Shown here piece by piece: positions 5,381 to 14,534 of a stretch of DNA of 26,982 bases. The position numbers and the translations under genes are program-made. The notes beneath the pieces were generated by a model that searched no databases, was not told where the DNA came from, and saw only the letters and a program-made list of their open reading frames with translations. Source of the DNA: a virus; the IMG/VR virus record IMGVR_UViG_3300031857_001132, positions 1-26,982 of that record; one strand, given 5' to 3'. Every line of letters begins with the position of its first letter. Within the stretch, counting starts at the first letter, position 1.

Positions 5381-5692
5381 TCAGCGGCCCGGGCCGTCCA
5401 CACGCGCTGTTTCTTCCAGATTGTCTATCCGGATGTCCGTGCGGTCGCCGTTTAAGAAGCGCAAACGGTGGATGGGCCAATAGCCAAGGACCAAGAACCA
5501 CGCGACCTTGGCCGCCAAGTACGAAGTGCCCTCCAAGCGCACACGCAGCTCAGGAACAGCAGTCGAGGTCTCGCTCCCAGCAAACTCACCACGCAACCGA
5601 CCATGCCGCCAGATCAACGCGCCATTGCCACTGTCACAGTACTGGAGCATCTCACGCATGTACGTGAGAGTGTTAGGATCAGGTTTGCTCAT
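5381..5692 (-). CDS. Degenerate HNH-endonuclease-like protein, 103 aa
   Basis: This is the only convincing minus-strand gene. Upstream of its ATG, AAAGGAACG gives a good ribosome site. The fold pattern matches phage HNH proteins: TYMREMLQYCDSGNGALIWR at the start, then YLAAKVAWFLVLGYWP and FLNGDRTDIRIDNLEE. The residues expected to be catalytic are altered. The usual YxAHR is YLAAK, the usual DHINGD is RFLNGD, and the DN of the last element is DI. Cleavage activity is therefore doubtful. It may be a DNA-binding remnant or a repurposed regulator. Confidence 0.7.
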   Translation of the reverse strand: MSKPDPNTLTYMREMLQYCDSGNGALIWRHGRLRGEFAGSETSTAVPELRVRLEGTSYLAAKVAWFLVLGYWPIHRLRFLNGDRTDIRIDNLEETARVDGPGR

Positions 5693-5726
5693 CGCGTCGT
5701 TCCTTTAAAACGAGGGGTGGGAAGTG

Positions 5727-5755
5727 AAGCCCCAGTGTGTCGAGCACTGGGGCTT
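5727..5755. terminator. 11-bp perfect hairpin, possible terminator
   Basis: AAGCCCCAGTG (5727-5737) pairs perfectly with CACTGGGGCTT (5745-5755) around a 7-base loop. The T-run on the + strand is only three bases, so termination would be modest. It lies in the 5' leader of the minus-strand gene and at the far end of any + transcript reading through from the left array. Confidence 0.55.
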
Positions 5756-5780
5756 TGCGCATTGTAGCGCACGGGTGTAA

Positions 5781-5804
5781 GGGGAAAAAGGGGCAAGGGA
5801 AGGG
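5781..5804 (+). promoter_or_regulatory. Second G-quadruplex motif
   Basis: G-runs of 4, 4, 3 and 3 are separated by AAAAA, CAA and AA, which fits the standard G3+ with loops of up to 7. More G-runs follow at 5812 and 5836. Together with 5358-5374 it brackets the minus-strand gene. Confidence 0.6.
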
Positions 5805-5871
5805 TTTTATTGGGGTTTACCCTAGTAAAAAGGGGCAGGGAGCGCGGAACGCGGGTCAAATTTGCGCTTTT

Positions 5872-5898
5872 AGTAGGATTATTCTCAACTTCATTTAC
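5872..5898 (-). repeat. Inverted repeat, left arm core
   Basis: The reverse complement of this 27-base core matches 6048-6074 at 26 of 27 positions. Weaker identity extends over about 51 bases (41 match), from 5854-5904 against 6042-6092. Read as protein, both arms begin with nearly the same peptide (MNVNEVENNPT on the minus strand, MKVNEVENNPT on the plus strand). Confidence 0.85.
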
Positions 5899-5928
5899 GT
5901 TCATAGGCAGTAAATATTGGTGAACAAG

Positions 5929-6006
5929 GTGTAATAGTGTAATAACATAATGAAATCATAGGGTTAAGAGTGATTACAGTGTTTTGTACAAGTGTAATGG
6001 TGTAAT
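5929..6006 (+). repeat. Paired GTGTAAT repeats (iteron- or operator-like)
   Basis: GTGTAAT occurs at 5929-5935, 5937-5943, 5992-5998 and 6000-6006. That makes two tandem pairs with an 8-bp period, each followed by AAC or TAAC. An inverted near-copy (ATTACAG) lies between them at about 5973. Repeats of this density in an AT-rich gap between diverging genes suggest binding sites for a replication initiator or a regulator. Confidence 0.65.
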
Positions 6007-6041
6007 TAACCTAAAATGCGCGCGCGACAACTTTTGGGCTT

Positions 6042-6362
6042 GTGAAAGTAAATGAAGTTGAAAATAATCCTACTGAAACGATGAATTTGAACGGGGAGAG
6101 GCCAGTGGTTGCGTTAGCTGTGGATTTGTTGCACAATGTAGGTATGAAAATAGAAGCAAACATCCCCCTGCCCGGCGGCGTCGACCACCGAGAGCGCTAT
6201 CCCTTCCCAGACATGCTGGTGGGAGACAGCTTTTTGGTGCTGGACGCGACGTGGATCAAGAACTTGCGCAGCGCGGCGTACATGTACTCTCGCAGGCATC
6301 CCGGCACGCGGTTTACCTGCCGACGGTACGGCGAGGGCTGGCGGCTTTGGAGGGTTGCTTGA
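6042..6362 (+). CDS. Conserved small phage protein (RYPFPDMLVGDSFLV family), 106 aa
   Basis: The recognisable part begins at an internal ATG, 6144 (MKIEANIPLPGG). It contains YPFPDMLVGDSFLVLD, RSAAYMYSRRHPGTRFTCRR and a C-terminal EGWRLWRVA. I know this as a common small phage protein family of unknown function, mixed beta/alpha, perhaps DUF7303 (from memory). A GTG start at 6042 would add 34 residues, whose beginning lies in the inverted repeat; ATG 6144 gives 72 aa, the usual family length. GTGGATTTGTTGCAC upstream of 6144 is shared with the promoter at 8753, which may support the shorter form. Confidence 0.75.
   Translation: MKVNEVENNPTETMNLNGERPVVALAVDLLHNVGMKIEANIPLPGGVDHRERYPFPDMLVGDSFLVLDATWIKNLRSAAYMYSRRHPGTRFTCRRYGEGWRLWRVA
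6048..6074 (+). repeat. Inverted repeat, right arm core
   Basis: Partner of 5872-5898. It lies in the first codons of the gene at 6042, 137 bases from the other 51-base arm. Confidence 0.85.
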
Positions 6363-7078
6363 TGCCAAGGCTTAGGGGCAAGGACGCGGAGTTTATGGAC
6401 GGCAGGAAGCTGGGCGGCCGCCCGGCGGTCGTTGAAGAGCGGATCACCCGCCCGGTCAAGCCCCACAAGCCCAAGCTGCTGACGCCCCAGGAATGGAAGT
6501 TCGTGGAGGAGTTCGTGGCGGGCGACGGCCACGTGACGCTGAAAGAGGCGGCGATTCGCGCCGGTTACTCGGAGCAGTGGGCGCGTGGTCGGGCGCGTGA
6601 GCTAACCGATCCGGACAGGAACCCCCACATGGTGGCCGCGATCCAAGAGCGCCGACGCGAACTGGGCGAGAAGTACGCCACCACGTTCGAGCGCCACATG
6701 CGGGACCTGCAGATCATCAGGGACCAGGCTTTGACCGCTGGGGCCTATGGGGCTGCCGTACAGGCCGAATATCGCCGTGGACAGGCCCTAGGGACCATCT
6801 ACATCGATCGCAAGGAGATCAGGCACGGCACGATCGATAGCATGAGCAAAGAAGAGGTGCAGCGCAAGCTGGACGAGATCAGACGCCTGTACGGTGGCCA
6901 GGGTGGGCCGATTGTGGACATCACCCCCAAGCAGATCGAAGAAGAACCAGAAGAACCGGAAGACCAGCTGGCCGACCCACCCCCACCCGAGGACGAAGAA
7001 GATGGCACTGAAACCGGAAGCGACCCTGTACAAAAGGCTGAAAGAGAACGTCCCCGCCTGCCATTTCACCCGGATTGA
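6362..7078 (+). CDS. terS: Terminase small subunit
   Basis: This 238-residue protein would recognise the packaging site and load DNA on the large terminase. After a basic, disordered start it has the Terminase_2-type core: LTPQEWKFVEEFVAG, HVTLKEAAIRAGYSEQWARGRA (helix-turn-helix, about 57-80) and NPHMVAAIQERRREL. Helices for oligomerisation follow (EKYATTFERHMRDLQIIRDQAL, YGAAVQAEYRRGQALG). The C-terminus, from about 190, is strongly acidic and Pro-rich, plausibly the contact for TerL. The start ATG 6362 overlaps the previous stop and has GGAGGG eight bases upstream. The last 77 bases overlap the nuclease gene. terL lies 6 kb further on, not next to it. Confidence 0.9.
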   Translation: MPRLRGKDAEFMDGRKLGGRPAVVEERITRPVKPHKPKLLTPQEWKFVEEFVAGDGHVTLKEAAIRAGYSEQWARGRARELTDPDRNPHMVAAIQERRRELGEKYATTFERHMRDLQIIRDQALTAGAYGAAVQAEYRRGQALGTIYIDRKEIRHGTIDSMSKEEVQRKLDEIRRLYGGQGGPIVDITPKQIEEEPEEPEDQLADPPPPEDEEDGTETGSDPVQKAERERPRLPFHPD

Positions 7079-11534: not shown

Positions 11535-12038
11535 ATGAGCTGCTTTGTTGTTTCCGATTATCACGTCTCCGCCCTGGTCGCCTGGGCTATCCGCGCCGGC
11601 GTGACGTTCGACGCGTCGCCCGACGCCCTGGCGCATGAGCTCGCGACTTCAAACCGGGCCGCGTTCGCCGAGCGCTACGCCGGCCGCTACCAGGATGAGG
11701 TCGCACCGTTTGGTGGCCTGGACTATTCGGCCGGCCTGGACCTGGCCCCGGTCGCCATTGTGAAAGCCTGCGATTGTCTGGCGTACCAGTGCAGCGATTG
11801 GTCGGCCTGGGAGCAGTCCGATGCGTGCCTGGACCTGGGCGAGATTCGCCAGGTCGCCATGCAGTTAACGCGCGGGCCCTGGTCGCCAGCTGAGCCCGAC
11901 GACGGCCGGCCGCTACCTGGTTATGACGCGGCCGCCTGGACCCTGGACGCGCCCGAGCCCGAGCCCGAGCCCGATCCGGCCGCCGAGCTGGCCCGGGTGC
12001 AGCGCATGGTCGGCGCCCTGGTGGGGGTGGCAGCATGA
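11535..12038 (+). CDS. Conserved mobile-element protein (MSCFVVSDYHVSALV ... CLAYQCSDWSAW), 167 aa
   Basis: ATG 11535 lies just after the previous stop. The start MSCFVVSDYHVSALVAWAI, the LATSNRAAFAERYAGRY segment and VAIVKACDCLAYQCSDWSAWEQS form a pattern I know from small phage, plasmid and ICE proteins, all hypothetical. The last 40 residues contain a Pro-Glu repeat (PEPEPEPDPAAEL) and are probably disordered. ATGA overlap couples it to the next gene. Confidence 0.7.
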   Translation: MSCFVVSDYHVSALVAWAIRAGVTFDASPDALAHELATSNRAAFAERYAGRYQDEVAPFGGLDYSAGLDLAPVAIVKACDCLAYQCSDWSAWEQSDACLDLGEIRQVAMQLTRGPWSPAEPDDGRPLPGYDAAAWTLDAPEPEPEPDPAAELARVQRMVGALVGVAA

Positions 12039-12253
12039 GCGCGCGCCTGCGCCTGGTGCAGCTGGTGCACCTGCCCGACGTCGGCCGGGTTCGTGTCGCC
12101 TGGTCGGCTACCTGGTCCGAGTACCAGGTGCGCGCCCTGGCCGCCGACGGCCAGCTGGCCGGCGAGTATTTCACGGCCGACCGGGCCGACGCCCTGGCGA
12201 CCGCCGACGTTATGCTGGCCGGCCTGGCCCTGGGGGCCGGTATGCCCGCCTGA
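12035..12253 (+). CDS. Small conserved protein (RVAWSATWSEYQVR), 72 aa
   Basis: ATG 12035 overlaps the previous stop by ATGA. A beta-rich first half (LRLVQLVHLPDVGRVRVAWSA, TWSEYQVRALAADGQLAGEYF) is followed by one helix (TADRADALATADVML). Similar short proteins with VxWSxxWSEYQVR accompany the MSCFVVS-type protein in other elements as I remember them. This is the last gene of the accessory block. Confidence 0.65.
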   Translation: MSARLRLVQLVHLPDVGRVRVAWSATWSEYQVRALAADGQLAGEYFTADRADALATADVMLAGLALGAGMPA

Positions 12254-12278
12254 GCTGCGCCCTATTCGTAATACACAA

Positions 12279-12303
12279 ACCCGCCCAGCTGGCGGGTTTT
12301 TTT
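12279..12303 (+). terminator. Intrinsic terminator of cassette 5
   Basis: ACCCGCC (12279-12285) pairs with GGCGGGT (12291-12297) around CAGCT, with a run of seven T ending at 12303. Confidence 0.9.
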
Positions 12304-12900
12304 ACGCCTGGACGCGTCGGGGCCTGCGCCCTGGGGGCACTAGGTATCACGCCCGGCCGCCCTATTCGGTGCCGACCTGGCCCGATCGCCCGCCCGGTCC
12401 GCCTGGCCAAACTAGGCACGTGGTCCGTGCCCGATCGGCCGCGCTACGGTGCGCGCGGTACCAGGGCGCGCCGGCCGTGGTCCGTGGGCCGATCCGCTCG
12501 CGCAGCTGGCGCCGGCCGTGGTCCGATCGGCTCGGACCGGCCGACCTGGTGGCGGGTTTCCCAGGTCAACGGCCCGCGACCTGGTGGCCGGTGTTTGTGT
12601 TTGCGTGGCCAGCTGGCCGGTGTTTGTGTGGCCGATCACAAACCCAGCTGGCCGCCGACCTGGTGCAGCTGGCCGCCGGCCGTTGACCTGGGAACCGTCG
12701 ACCAGGTGGCCGCCGGCCACGGTCCGAGCTGCGTCGACCTGGTGCAGCTGGCCACGGTCCGCGCGCCCAGCTGCGCGCCCTGGTGGCCATGGGCCGCGCT
12801 ACCTGGTGCGCGACCAGGTGGCCGCCCGACCAGGCACGCGGGCCGCCGACCAGGCACCGACGGCCAGGGTTCGCGCGCCCTGCAGCGTAAGTGAGTACCC
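12304..12900. other. GC-rich low-complexity tract without a credible gene
   Basis: About 600 bases are built from short recurring words: GGCCG, GACCTGGTG, CAGCTGGCC, CGATCGG, GGTCCG. Examples are the pair GGCCGGTGTTTGTGT near 12589 and 12616, and GGCCGTGGTCCG near 12472 and 12512. Several frames stay open only because stop codons are rare at this composition. None has a plausible start, ribosome site or protein-like sequence. It follows a terminator and may be expanded by slippage or be decayed cassette DNA. Confidence 0.6.
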
Positions 12901-13076: not shown

Positions 13077-14534
13077 ATGATCCCCGAAGACATCGACGCC
13101 GACCGACTGCGCCTTGAATACCGGCTCGCGCAGCTTGATTCTCAAGACAAGGCCCGTGGCTCGTTCATCGATTTCGTTCGATACGTCTGGCCCGGAGCCG
13201 TGCTCGGTGAGCACCACAACGTGATGGCTAATGCTTTTGACCGCATAGCCAACGGCACCTTGAAGCGCTTAATCATTAACATGCCCCCTCGGCACACGAA
13301 GTCCGAGTTCGCAAGCTACCTGCTGCCTGCGTATCTGATGGGCCGCGATCCGCGCACCAAGGCCATTGAAGCCACCCACAACAGCGAGTTGGCTGTGCGT
13401 TTTGGCAGGAAGGTGCGTGACCTGATGGACATGGAGACGTACAAGGAGGTGTTCCCGGATGTCAGTTTGAAGCAGGACTCGAAGGCGGCGGGTCGGTGGG
13501 ACACGAACATGGGCGGGGAGTATTTTGCTGTGGGTGTGGGCGGTGCGATGACGGGGCGTGGTGCGGATGTTTTGATCATTGATGACCCGCATTCGGAGCA
13601 GGATGCGATGAGTGAGTTGGCGTTGGACAATTGTTGGGAGTGGTACAGCTCGGGACCCAGGACGCGTTTGCAGCCTGGCGGGGCGGTGGTGATTGTGATG
13701 ACGCGTTGGGGGACGAAGGACTTGACGGCGCGCCTGATCAAGGCGCAGAACTCGAGGAACGCGGACCAGTGGGAGGTGATTGAGTTCCCGGCGATTTTGC
13801 CCAGTGGGCGTGCGTTGTGGCCGGAGTTTTGGAAGATTGAGGAGTTGGAGGGCGTGAAGGCCTCGTTGTCGGTGCAGAAGTGGAACGCGATGTACCAGCA
13901 GCAGCCCACGAATGATGAGGGTGCGATATTGAAGCGGGAGTGGTGGAAGGTGTGGCCACGGGACGATCCGCCGGAGGTGAATTACATCATCCAGTCGATG
14001 GACACGGCGTACTCGAAGAAGGAGACGGCTGACTTTTCTGTGATCACGACGTGGGGCGTGTTTTATTTGAACGAGGACTCGGGGGCGTCGATTATTTTGT
14101 TGAACGTCACGCGTGGGCGGTGGGACTTCCCGGAGCTCAAAAGGATTGCCAAGGAGCAGTACGACGAGTGGCAGCCGGACAATGTGTTGATTGAGGCGAA
14201 GGCCACGGGTACGCCGTTGCAGCAGGAACTGCGTCGGATGAGCATCCCGGTGACGATGTATTCGCCGGGTGGGCGGCGCGCGGGCCAGGACAAGGTGGCG
14301 CGCGCGAACTCGGTCTCGCCGATATTGGAGGCGGGTATGGTGTGGGCTCCGGACACGGAGTGGGCGGAGGAGCTTGTCGAGGAATGCGCGGCGTTTCCGC
14401 ATGGGGACAACGACGACATGGTGGACAGCACGATCATGGCGCTGGACCGGTTTCGTCGGGGCAACTTCATCAGTTTGCACACGGACGACAACGAGGAGGG
14501 CCCGGCTGGGGACCTTGTGCCGGAGTACTATTGA
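13077..14534 (+). CDS. terL: Terminase large subunit
   Basis: This 485-residue ATPase/nuclease drives DNA packaging. The ATPase has a deviant Walker A, MPPRHTKS (residues 69-76), and Walker B VLIIDDPHSE (D169, D170), followed by a coupling segment MTRWGTKDL (209-217). The nuclease shows SMDTAYSKKETADFSV (D309), LIEAKATGT (E373) and GDNDDMVDS (D447/D450). All expected catalytic residues are present and length is normal. ATG 13077 was chosen because IPEDIDADRLRL begins the conserved part; the open frame upstream runs through the promoter and parS-like site. The ribosome site is weak. Terminase and portal genes are split by one large gene. Confidence 0.95.
   Translation: MIPEDIDADRLRLEYRLAQLDSQDKARGSFIDFVRYVWPGAVLGEHHNVMANAFDRIANGTLKRLIINMPPRHTKSEFASYLLPAYLMGRDPRTKAIEATHNSELAVRFGRKVRDLMDMETYKEVFPDVSLKQDSKAAGRWDTNMGGEYFAVGVGGAMTGRGADVLIIDDPHSEQDAMSELALDNCWEWYSSGPRTRLQPGGAVVIVMTRWGTKDLTARLIKAQNSRNADQWEVIEFPAILPSGRALWPEFWKIEELEGVKASLSVQKWNAMYQQQPTNDEGAILKREWWKVWPRDDPPEVNYIIQSMDTAYSKKETADFSVITTWGVFYLNEDSGASIILLNVTRGRWDFPELKRIAKEQYDEWQPDNVLIEAKATGTPLQQELRRMSIPVTMYSPGGRRAGQDKVARANSVSPILEAGMVWAPDTEWAEELVEECAAFPHGDNDDMVDSTIMALDRFRRGNFISLHTDDNEEGPAGDLVPEYY

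Follow-up and report, generated by a model that had tools for sequence, protein, structure and literature searches.

A long inverted repeat of a lake phage, located in a 26,982-bp IMG/VR virus record that as a whole constitutes the window analysed here, borders a conserved non-coding element of ~240 bp. Judged by comparison of related sequences, the repeat probably borders an iteron-type replication origin served by the phage AEP primase; we infer initiator binding, origin activity and a role for the arms. Pelagiphages and their freshwater relatives are among the most abundant viruses. How they start replication is not described in the literature we found, and neither is the element itself.

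An inverted repeat flanks the AT-richest part of the window

The two arms of the repeat are 81% complementary and separated by a spacer of 129 nt. They contain 27-base cores, AGTAGGATTATTCTCAACTTCATTTAC at 5872-5898 and GTAAATGAAGTTGAAAATAATCCTACT at 6048-6074, which differ at a single, synonymous position (GAG/GAA). Local alignment of the arms gave a score of 57, compared to a maximum of 28 among 1000 dinucleotide-preserving shuffles of the region 5700-6250, 0/1000 coming close, and in a scan of the whole window the arm pair was the top inverted repeat of its geometry. The centre of the element has an AT content of 66.5%, higher than any other 200-bp stretch of the window (window mean 41%, runner-up outside the element 58%). 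Copies of TGTAAT are found in the centre at 5930 (+), 5938 (+), 5973 (-, inverted), 5993 (+) and 6001 (+), and the remainder of the 27 kb holds 4 more. The near-identical cores with their synonymous difference, the AT-rich centre with repeats and a peptide M(N/K)VNEVENNPT readable outward on both strands had all been described in a sequence-only reading of this DNA and were confirmed. The element and its flanking genes consist of the following parts:

5381..5692, minus strand: HNH endonuclease gene (PF13392 E 2.9e-7; phrog_99 E 5e-13), flanking the element on the left
5735..5763, no strand: terminator-like hairpin AAGCCCCAGTG...CACTGGGGCTT, left of the element, read directly
5838..5855, no strand: left-border motif with a period of ~7, GGGAGCGCGGAACGCGGG in the window, GGAYCACGGAYCACGG and GGAYCACGGAYC-type in relatives
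5856-5908, no strand: left arm of the inverted repeat, 53 nt
5929..5943, plus strand: left iteron pair GTGTAAT-A-GTGTAAT, spacing 8, conserved in relatives
5954..5966, plus strand: IHF-like site AATCATAGGGTTA, one mismatch to WATCAANNNNTTR
5973..5978, minus strand: lone inverted iteron ATTACA, read in the sequence
5992..6007, plus strand: right iteron pair GTGTAAT-G-GTGTAATT, starting 63 bp (6 helical turns) from the left pair
6012..6027, plus strand: AT/GC box TAAAAT-GCGCGCGCGA, conserved more strongly than any other block of the element
6038-6090, no strand: right arm of the inverted repeat, 53 nt
6144..6362, plus strand: small conserved downstream ORF, start ATG 6144
6362..7078, plus strand: terminase small subunit gene (phrog_51 E 3e-9)

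The inverted repeat ranked second in the window (12538-12712, score 47) lies within a GC-rich repetitive stretch at ~11900-12890, 5' of the terminase large-subunit gene; the same stretch contains tandem repeats at 12745-12865.

The element is conserved among relatives and marine phages

The IMG/VR contigs carrying the element number well over 100; it is also present in DSL-LC04, for which the family 'Dishuiviridae' has been proposed (PMC10611076), and in marine HTVC023P/HTVC027P-like phages. Scanning IMG/VR with the downstream ORF yielded 80 relatives, and a second scan with the exact core pattern yielded 79 stretches. In phage 023Pt_psg01 the element is the top inverted repeat in 29 kb. The order of its parts is conserved: left-border motif, left arm, GTGTAATrGTGTAAT, AATCAATrGGTTA, inverted ATTACA, further iterons, TAAAATGCGCGCG, right arm. 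The left-border motif belongs to the most conserved columns in an alignment of 55 non-redundant elements and occupies the same side in HTVC023P, HTVC027P and DSL-like loci. GCGCGCGCGA is shared with DSL-LC04 and psg01, and many relatives have a similar hairpin left of the element. A pattern scan of a plasmid collection and of genome contigs gave no match. In Pbunavirus KPP22, which shares a Pam3_gp34-like protein, the 50 kb scanned held no matching inverted repeat, which does not imply its absence.

The letters of arms and iterons vary between clades, and within each phage the arms stay mutual inverted repeats. Among 36 representatives the mean score of a phage's own arms was 36.5, compared to 23.4 for permuted arms (z = 9.6). 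The match was significant for DSL-LC04, psg01 and HTVC023P taken alone and not significant for HTVC027P alone; some loci have mosaic arms that match each other poorly. The arms co-evolve, whether by selection on base pairs or by gene conversion between them. Relatives with one arm only, named beforehand as evidence against the sequence-only interpretation of the repeat, were not seen, as relatives keep both arms. An invertible centre, also considered in the sequence-only reading, found no support either, since the orientation of the core relative to the downstream genes is constant in every relative read.

Two side observations concern the left flank. In the window and its relatives the left border is a period-7 array (GGAYCAC)n with up to ~five copies in locus L233, and DSL-LC04 has an HNH endonuclease gene in the matching position left of the element.

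Iterons, IHF-type sites and DnaA boxes in or beside the element

The iterons follow a layout of two to three direct copies, then one to two inverted and then one to three direct copies, in steps of 8-9 bp. The TGTAAT copies of the window are arranged in this way, as are those of GGCACA in psg01 at 13693 (+), 13702 (+), 13752 (-), 13776 (+) and 13785 (+). Across phages the iteron letters change (GTGTAAT, CGTAAT, GTTACAA, GTCTCAA, GGCACA, CTAGGAAA and others), but their arrangement as direct, centre, inverted and direct is kept. Mean best 6-mer counts ranged between 3.0 and 4.6 in five groups, compared to 2.1-2.3 in shuffles; the counts in DSL-LC04 and HTVC027P themselves were not significant. 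In a 60.8-kb relative the iteron pair was found only in the element. Clusters of at least two repeats in non-coding DNA, as expected of an iteron-type origin, are thus present, and the clustered repeats would be candidate initiator sites.

A perfect IHF consensus was found in 49/55 cores of the window clade, 11/16 DSL-like and 4/10 HTVC027P-like cores, where shuffles predict 1.8, 0.24 and 0.18, respectively. None of the HTVC023P-like and psg01-like cores has a perfect site, and that of the window itself carries one mismatch. In two lineages perfect DnaA boxes form clusters of two or four to the left of the element, within ~220 bp of it (L409 1631-1735, L411 1843-1947, L357 1920-1941 and L358 796-817); no such cluster was found elsewhere in 418 loci (2.7 Mb). 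Boxes with one mismatch are enriched 2.1-2.6-fold left of the element. Sites for IHF and/or DnaA, which are common though not universal in iteron origins, therefore accompany the repeats.

The AT richness of the element places it in the top 1% of windows in DSL-LC04 and in the top 5% in HTVC023P; in the AT-rich psg01 and HTVC027P its AT content is not unusual. GC skew did not flip at the element in four complete genomes, where it follows the gene strand and is uninformative.

The same layout is found upstream of AEP primase genes

An AEP primase is encoded in 13/14 contigs carrying the window-type or marine element, so that a replication module is linked to it, a further feature of iteron-type origins. 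The AEP (PrimPol-like) primase of DSL-LC04 corresponds to PF22548 and has homologues in phages of Acinetobacter, Providencia, Salmonella, Klebsiella and Pseudomonas. In six unrelated phages, JeffCo, Kokobel2, PMBT28, PSA28, SH-Ab 15497 and K21lambda1, we read the gap immediately 5' of the primase gene. All six contain 4-6 iterons of one motif in the layout of the element (p <= 0.004 each). In PMBT28 ATGGAACG occurs as three direct, two inverted and one direct copies, in SH-Ab 15497 GAGCAACC as two direct, one inverted and three direct copies. Clear inverted arms accompany the iterons in JeffCo and Kokobel2; in PMBT28-like phages the arms are short, weak by eye and below the threshold of the scan. 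In MW202510, which has an AEP primase, such an inverted repeat was not found.

We also examined a modelled structure of the primase, in which pLDDT averages 64 and is mostly 80-90 in the C-terminal part. The N-terminus adopts an AEP fold with Z 13.7 to CAPP. Residues 394-498 are modelled as a winged helix, for which the matches were SCCmec Cch (Z 7.1) and SaPIBov1 Rep (Z 6.0), both of them replication proteins of mobile elements. The primase would thus end in a predicted winged helix, a lead resting on modest matches, as such Z values may reflect a common fold. Solved structures searched with a profile built from the primase alignment returned nothing significant. In contig G013 (62,993 bp), otherwise a near-full-length HTVC027P-like contig, the AEP primase is split over two matches (L519/L520), one of them with an internal TAA.

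Alternative explanations of the element

The element could also be a packaging initiation site (pac/cosB-like), with the repeats as binding sites of the terminase small subunit, a centre bent by IHF and cleavage by the terminase nearby. The terminase small-subunit gene is indeed near the element in all window-type and marine groups, only 22 bp downstream of it in HTVC023P-like phages; a position beside or inside this gene would be typical of an SPP1-type pac. In lambda cosB, too, repeated terminase sites are arranged around a bend made by IHF, close to the terminase genes (PMC4856287). However, in HTVC027P-like phages whose terminase small subunits have a near-identical HTH the iterons switch among GTTACAA, GTCTCAA, GCTACAA and GTGTTACA. 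We consider a packaging site unlikely on the indirect evidence that the iterons turn over fast beside a nearly unchanged terminase HTH, which, in contrast to cosB, does not track the repeat letters. Also unlike cosB, the layout adjoins primase genes: JeffCo and Kokobel2 carry it upstream of the primase, with the terminases ~18-21 kb away. Since the iterons lie directly upstream of the AEP primase and far from the terminase in these whole genomes, an origin is favored.

Genome ends were considered as well. Within 300 bp upstream of the element 11 contig ends were observed, compared to 3.1 expected, at scattered positions. As scattered ends more likely represent assembly breaks, we rejected them as physical genome ends. 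Among 83 contigs most run through the element, and ends inside it are scattered without a sharp shared end. DSL-LC04 and psg01 were deposited as circular. Scattered ends and circular deposits speak against cos or fixed terminal repeats, as opposed to headful pac, and the fixed ends of a cosB-type site were not seen.

It is very unlikely that the arms form the long stem of a structured leader RNA of the late operon around a protein-binding core. Such a stem would be very stable (-82 kcal/mol, z = -8.2), but the fold score is accounted for by the inverted repeat alone. On the late-coding strand G-U mismatches exceed A-C mismatches in three groups (118:77, 35:22 and 30:22), yet C-to-T mutation bias affecting the coding strand would be expected to produce such a small surplus too. 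Tandem iterons, IHF and DnaA boxes, moreover, are DNA-type motifs, and a search of Rfam gave a sub-threshold match only.

We give very little credence to a late-promoter or enhancer region, in which the iterons would be operators of a phage activator looped by IHF. The element has a terminator-like hairpin on one side and the late gene block on the other, a position that would suit this explanation; a promoter or enhancer, however, leaves the co-evolving arms, the DnaA boxes and the copies upstream of primase genes unexplained.

The sequence-only reading had proposed that the start of a gene was copied in inverted orientation. In 79/80 relatives the alignment of the downstream ORF begins at ATG 6144, and in most of them a stop codon between this ATG and the position of the peptide breaks the frame. 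Only the nearest relatives of the window retain the peptide, which elsewhere is interrupted or without a start; a reading frame conserved in both arms, as expected of an inverted gene duplication, was not found. The shared peptide is a by-product. An inverted duplication of the gene start is almost certainly wrong: in the window, as in its nearest relatives, either arm can be read as the peptide, but neither frame nor start is conserved, the true start is ATG 6144, and the arms of other clades are unrelated in sequence and nevertheless inverted. The other proposal, a bipartite regulatory site in the leaders of two genes, was right as to a bipartite cis-acting site and wrong as to the two leaders, as the arms border an iteron element, most likely an origin of replication.

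Proposed mechanism and significance

At such an origin a phage initiator, perhaps the AEP primase via its C-terminal winged helix, would bind the iterons. IHF would bend the centre so that the iteron groups face each other, and the AT-rich DNA would open. The arms, one sequence on opposite strands, could then form a pair of sites at which two opposite forks start or primase is loaded; alternatively, they might fold into hairpins once single-stranded. A farther-reaching version, which we regard as possible and rather doubtful, holds that the primase itself is the initiator, that its winged helix reads the rapidly diversifying iterons, that the two co-evolving inverted arms are a pair of start sites for opposite forks, and that all this defines a widespread class of origins in AEP-primase phages. 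If true, an architecture kept while every recognition letter is replaced would be the viral counterpart of plasmid incompatibility groups, and the class would include relatives of the abundant pelagiphages.

The element provides precise coordinates for an origin test in culturable hosts. Direct/inverted/direct iterons, an IHF-type site and inverted arms may serve as a signature for origins in uncultured phages, and an origin architecture that outlives its recognition sequences would be a case for studying the co-evolution of initiator and iterons.

Comparison with known systems

Iterons, DnaA boxes and an IHF site are shared with iteron plasmid origins such as those of P1, R6K and pSC101 (PMC4980987); these also have an AT-rich unwinding region, to which the AT-rich DNA of the element may correspond in the window, DSL-LC04 and HTVC023P. 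In contrast to these, the core iteron of the phage element has ~6-9 bp, occurs in mixed orientation and lies between long inverted arms, and its initiator is possibly an AEP primase. PrimPol of phage NrS-1 is an AEP-family phage primase with a recognition site on each strand of a proposed origin (PMC7102993); these are single 8-nt sites, whereas the phage element has long arms and iterons. The origin of the Vibrio satellite PLE likewise belongs to a replicon related to phages and has iterons to which a dedicated initiator binds, but this is a RepA_N protein and the repeats follow another plan (PMC7145576).

The origins oriL/oriR of the lytic phage SPP1 (PMC6316719) resemble the element in having direct repeats together with an AT-rich unwinding region, for which the AT-rich DNA of the window would be the counterpart, and differ in the use of gp38 with a DnaB-type helicase; in the text consulted, long flanking inverted arms, a central IHF-type site or a direct/inverted/direct layout are not described. 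SPP1 has two origins, with oriR in the late gene region (PMC6316719). A second cluster of identical iterons away from the primase gene is present in JeffCo (L420, 42775-43064) and Kokobel2 (L422, ~14124-14300), which suggests two origins per genome in these phages, as in SPP1.
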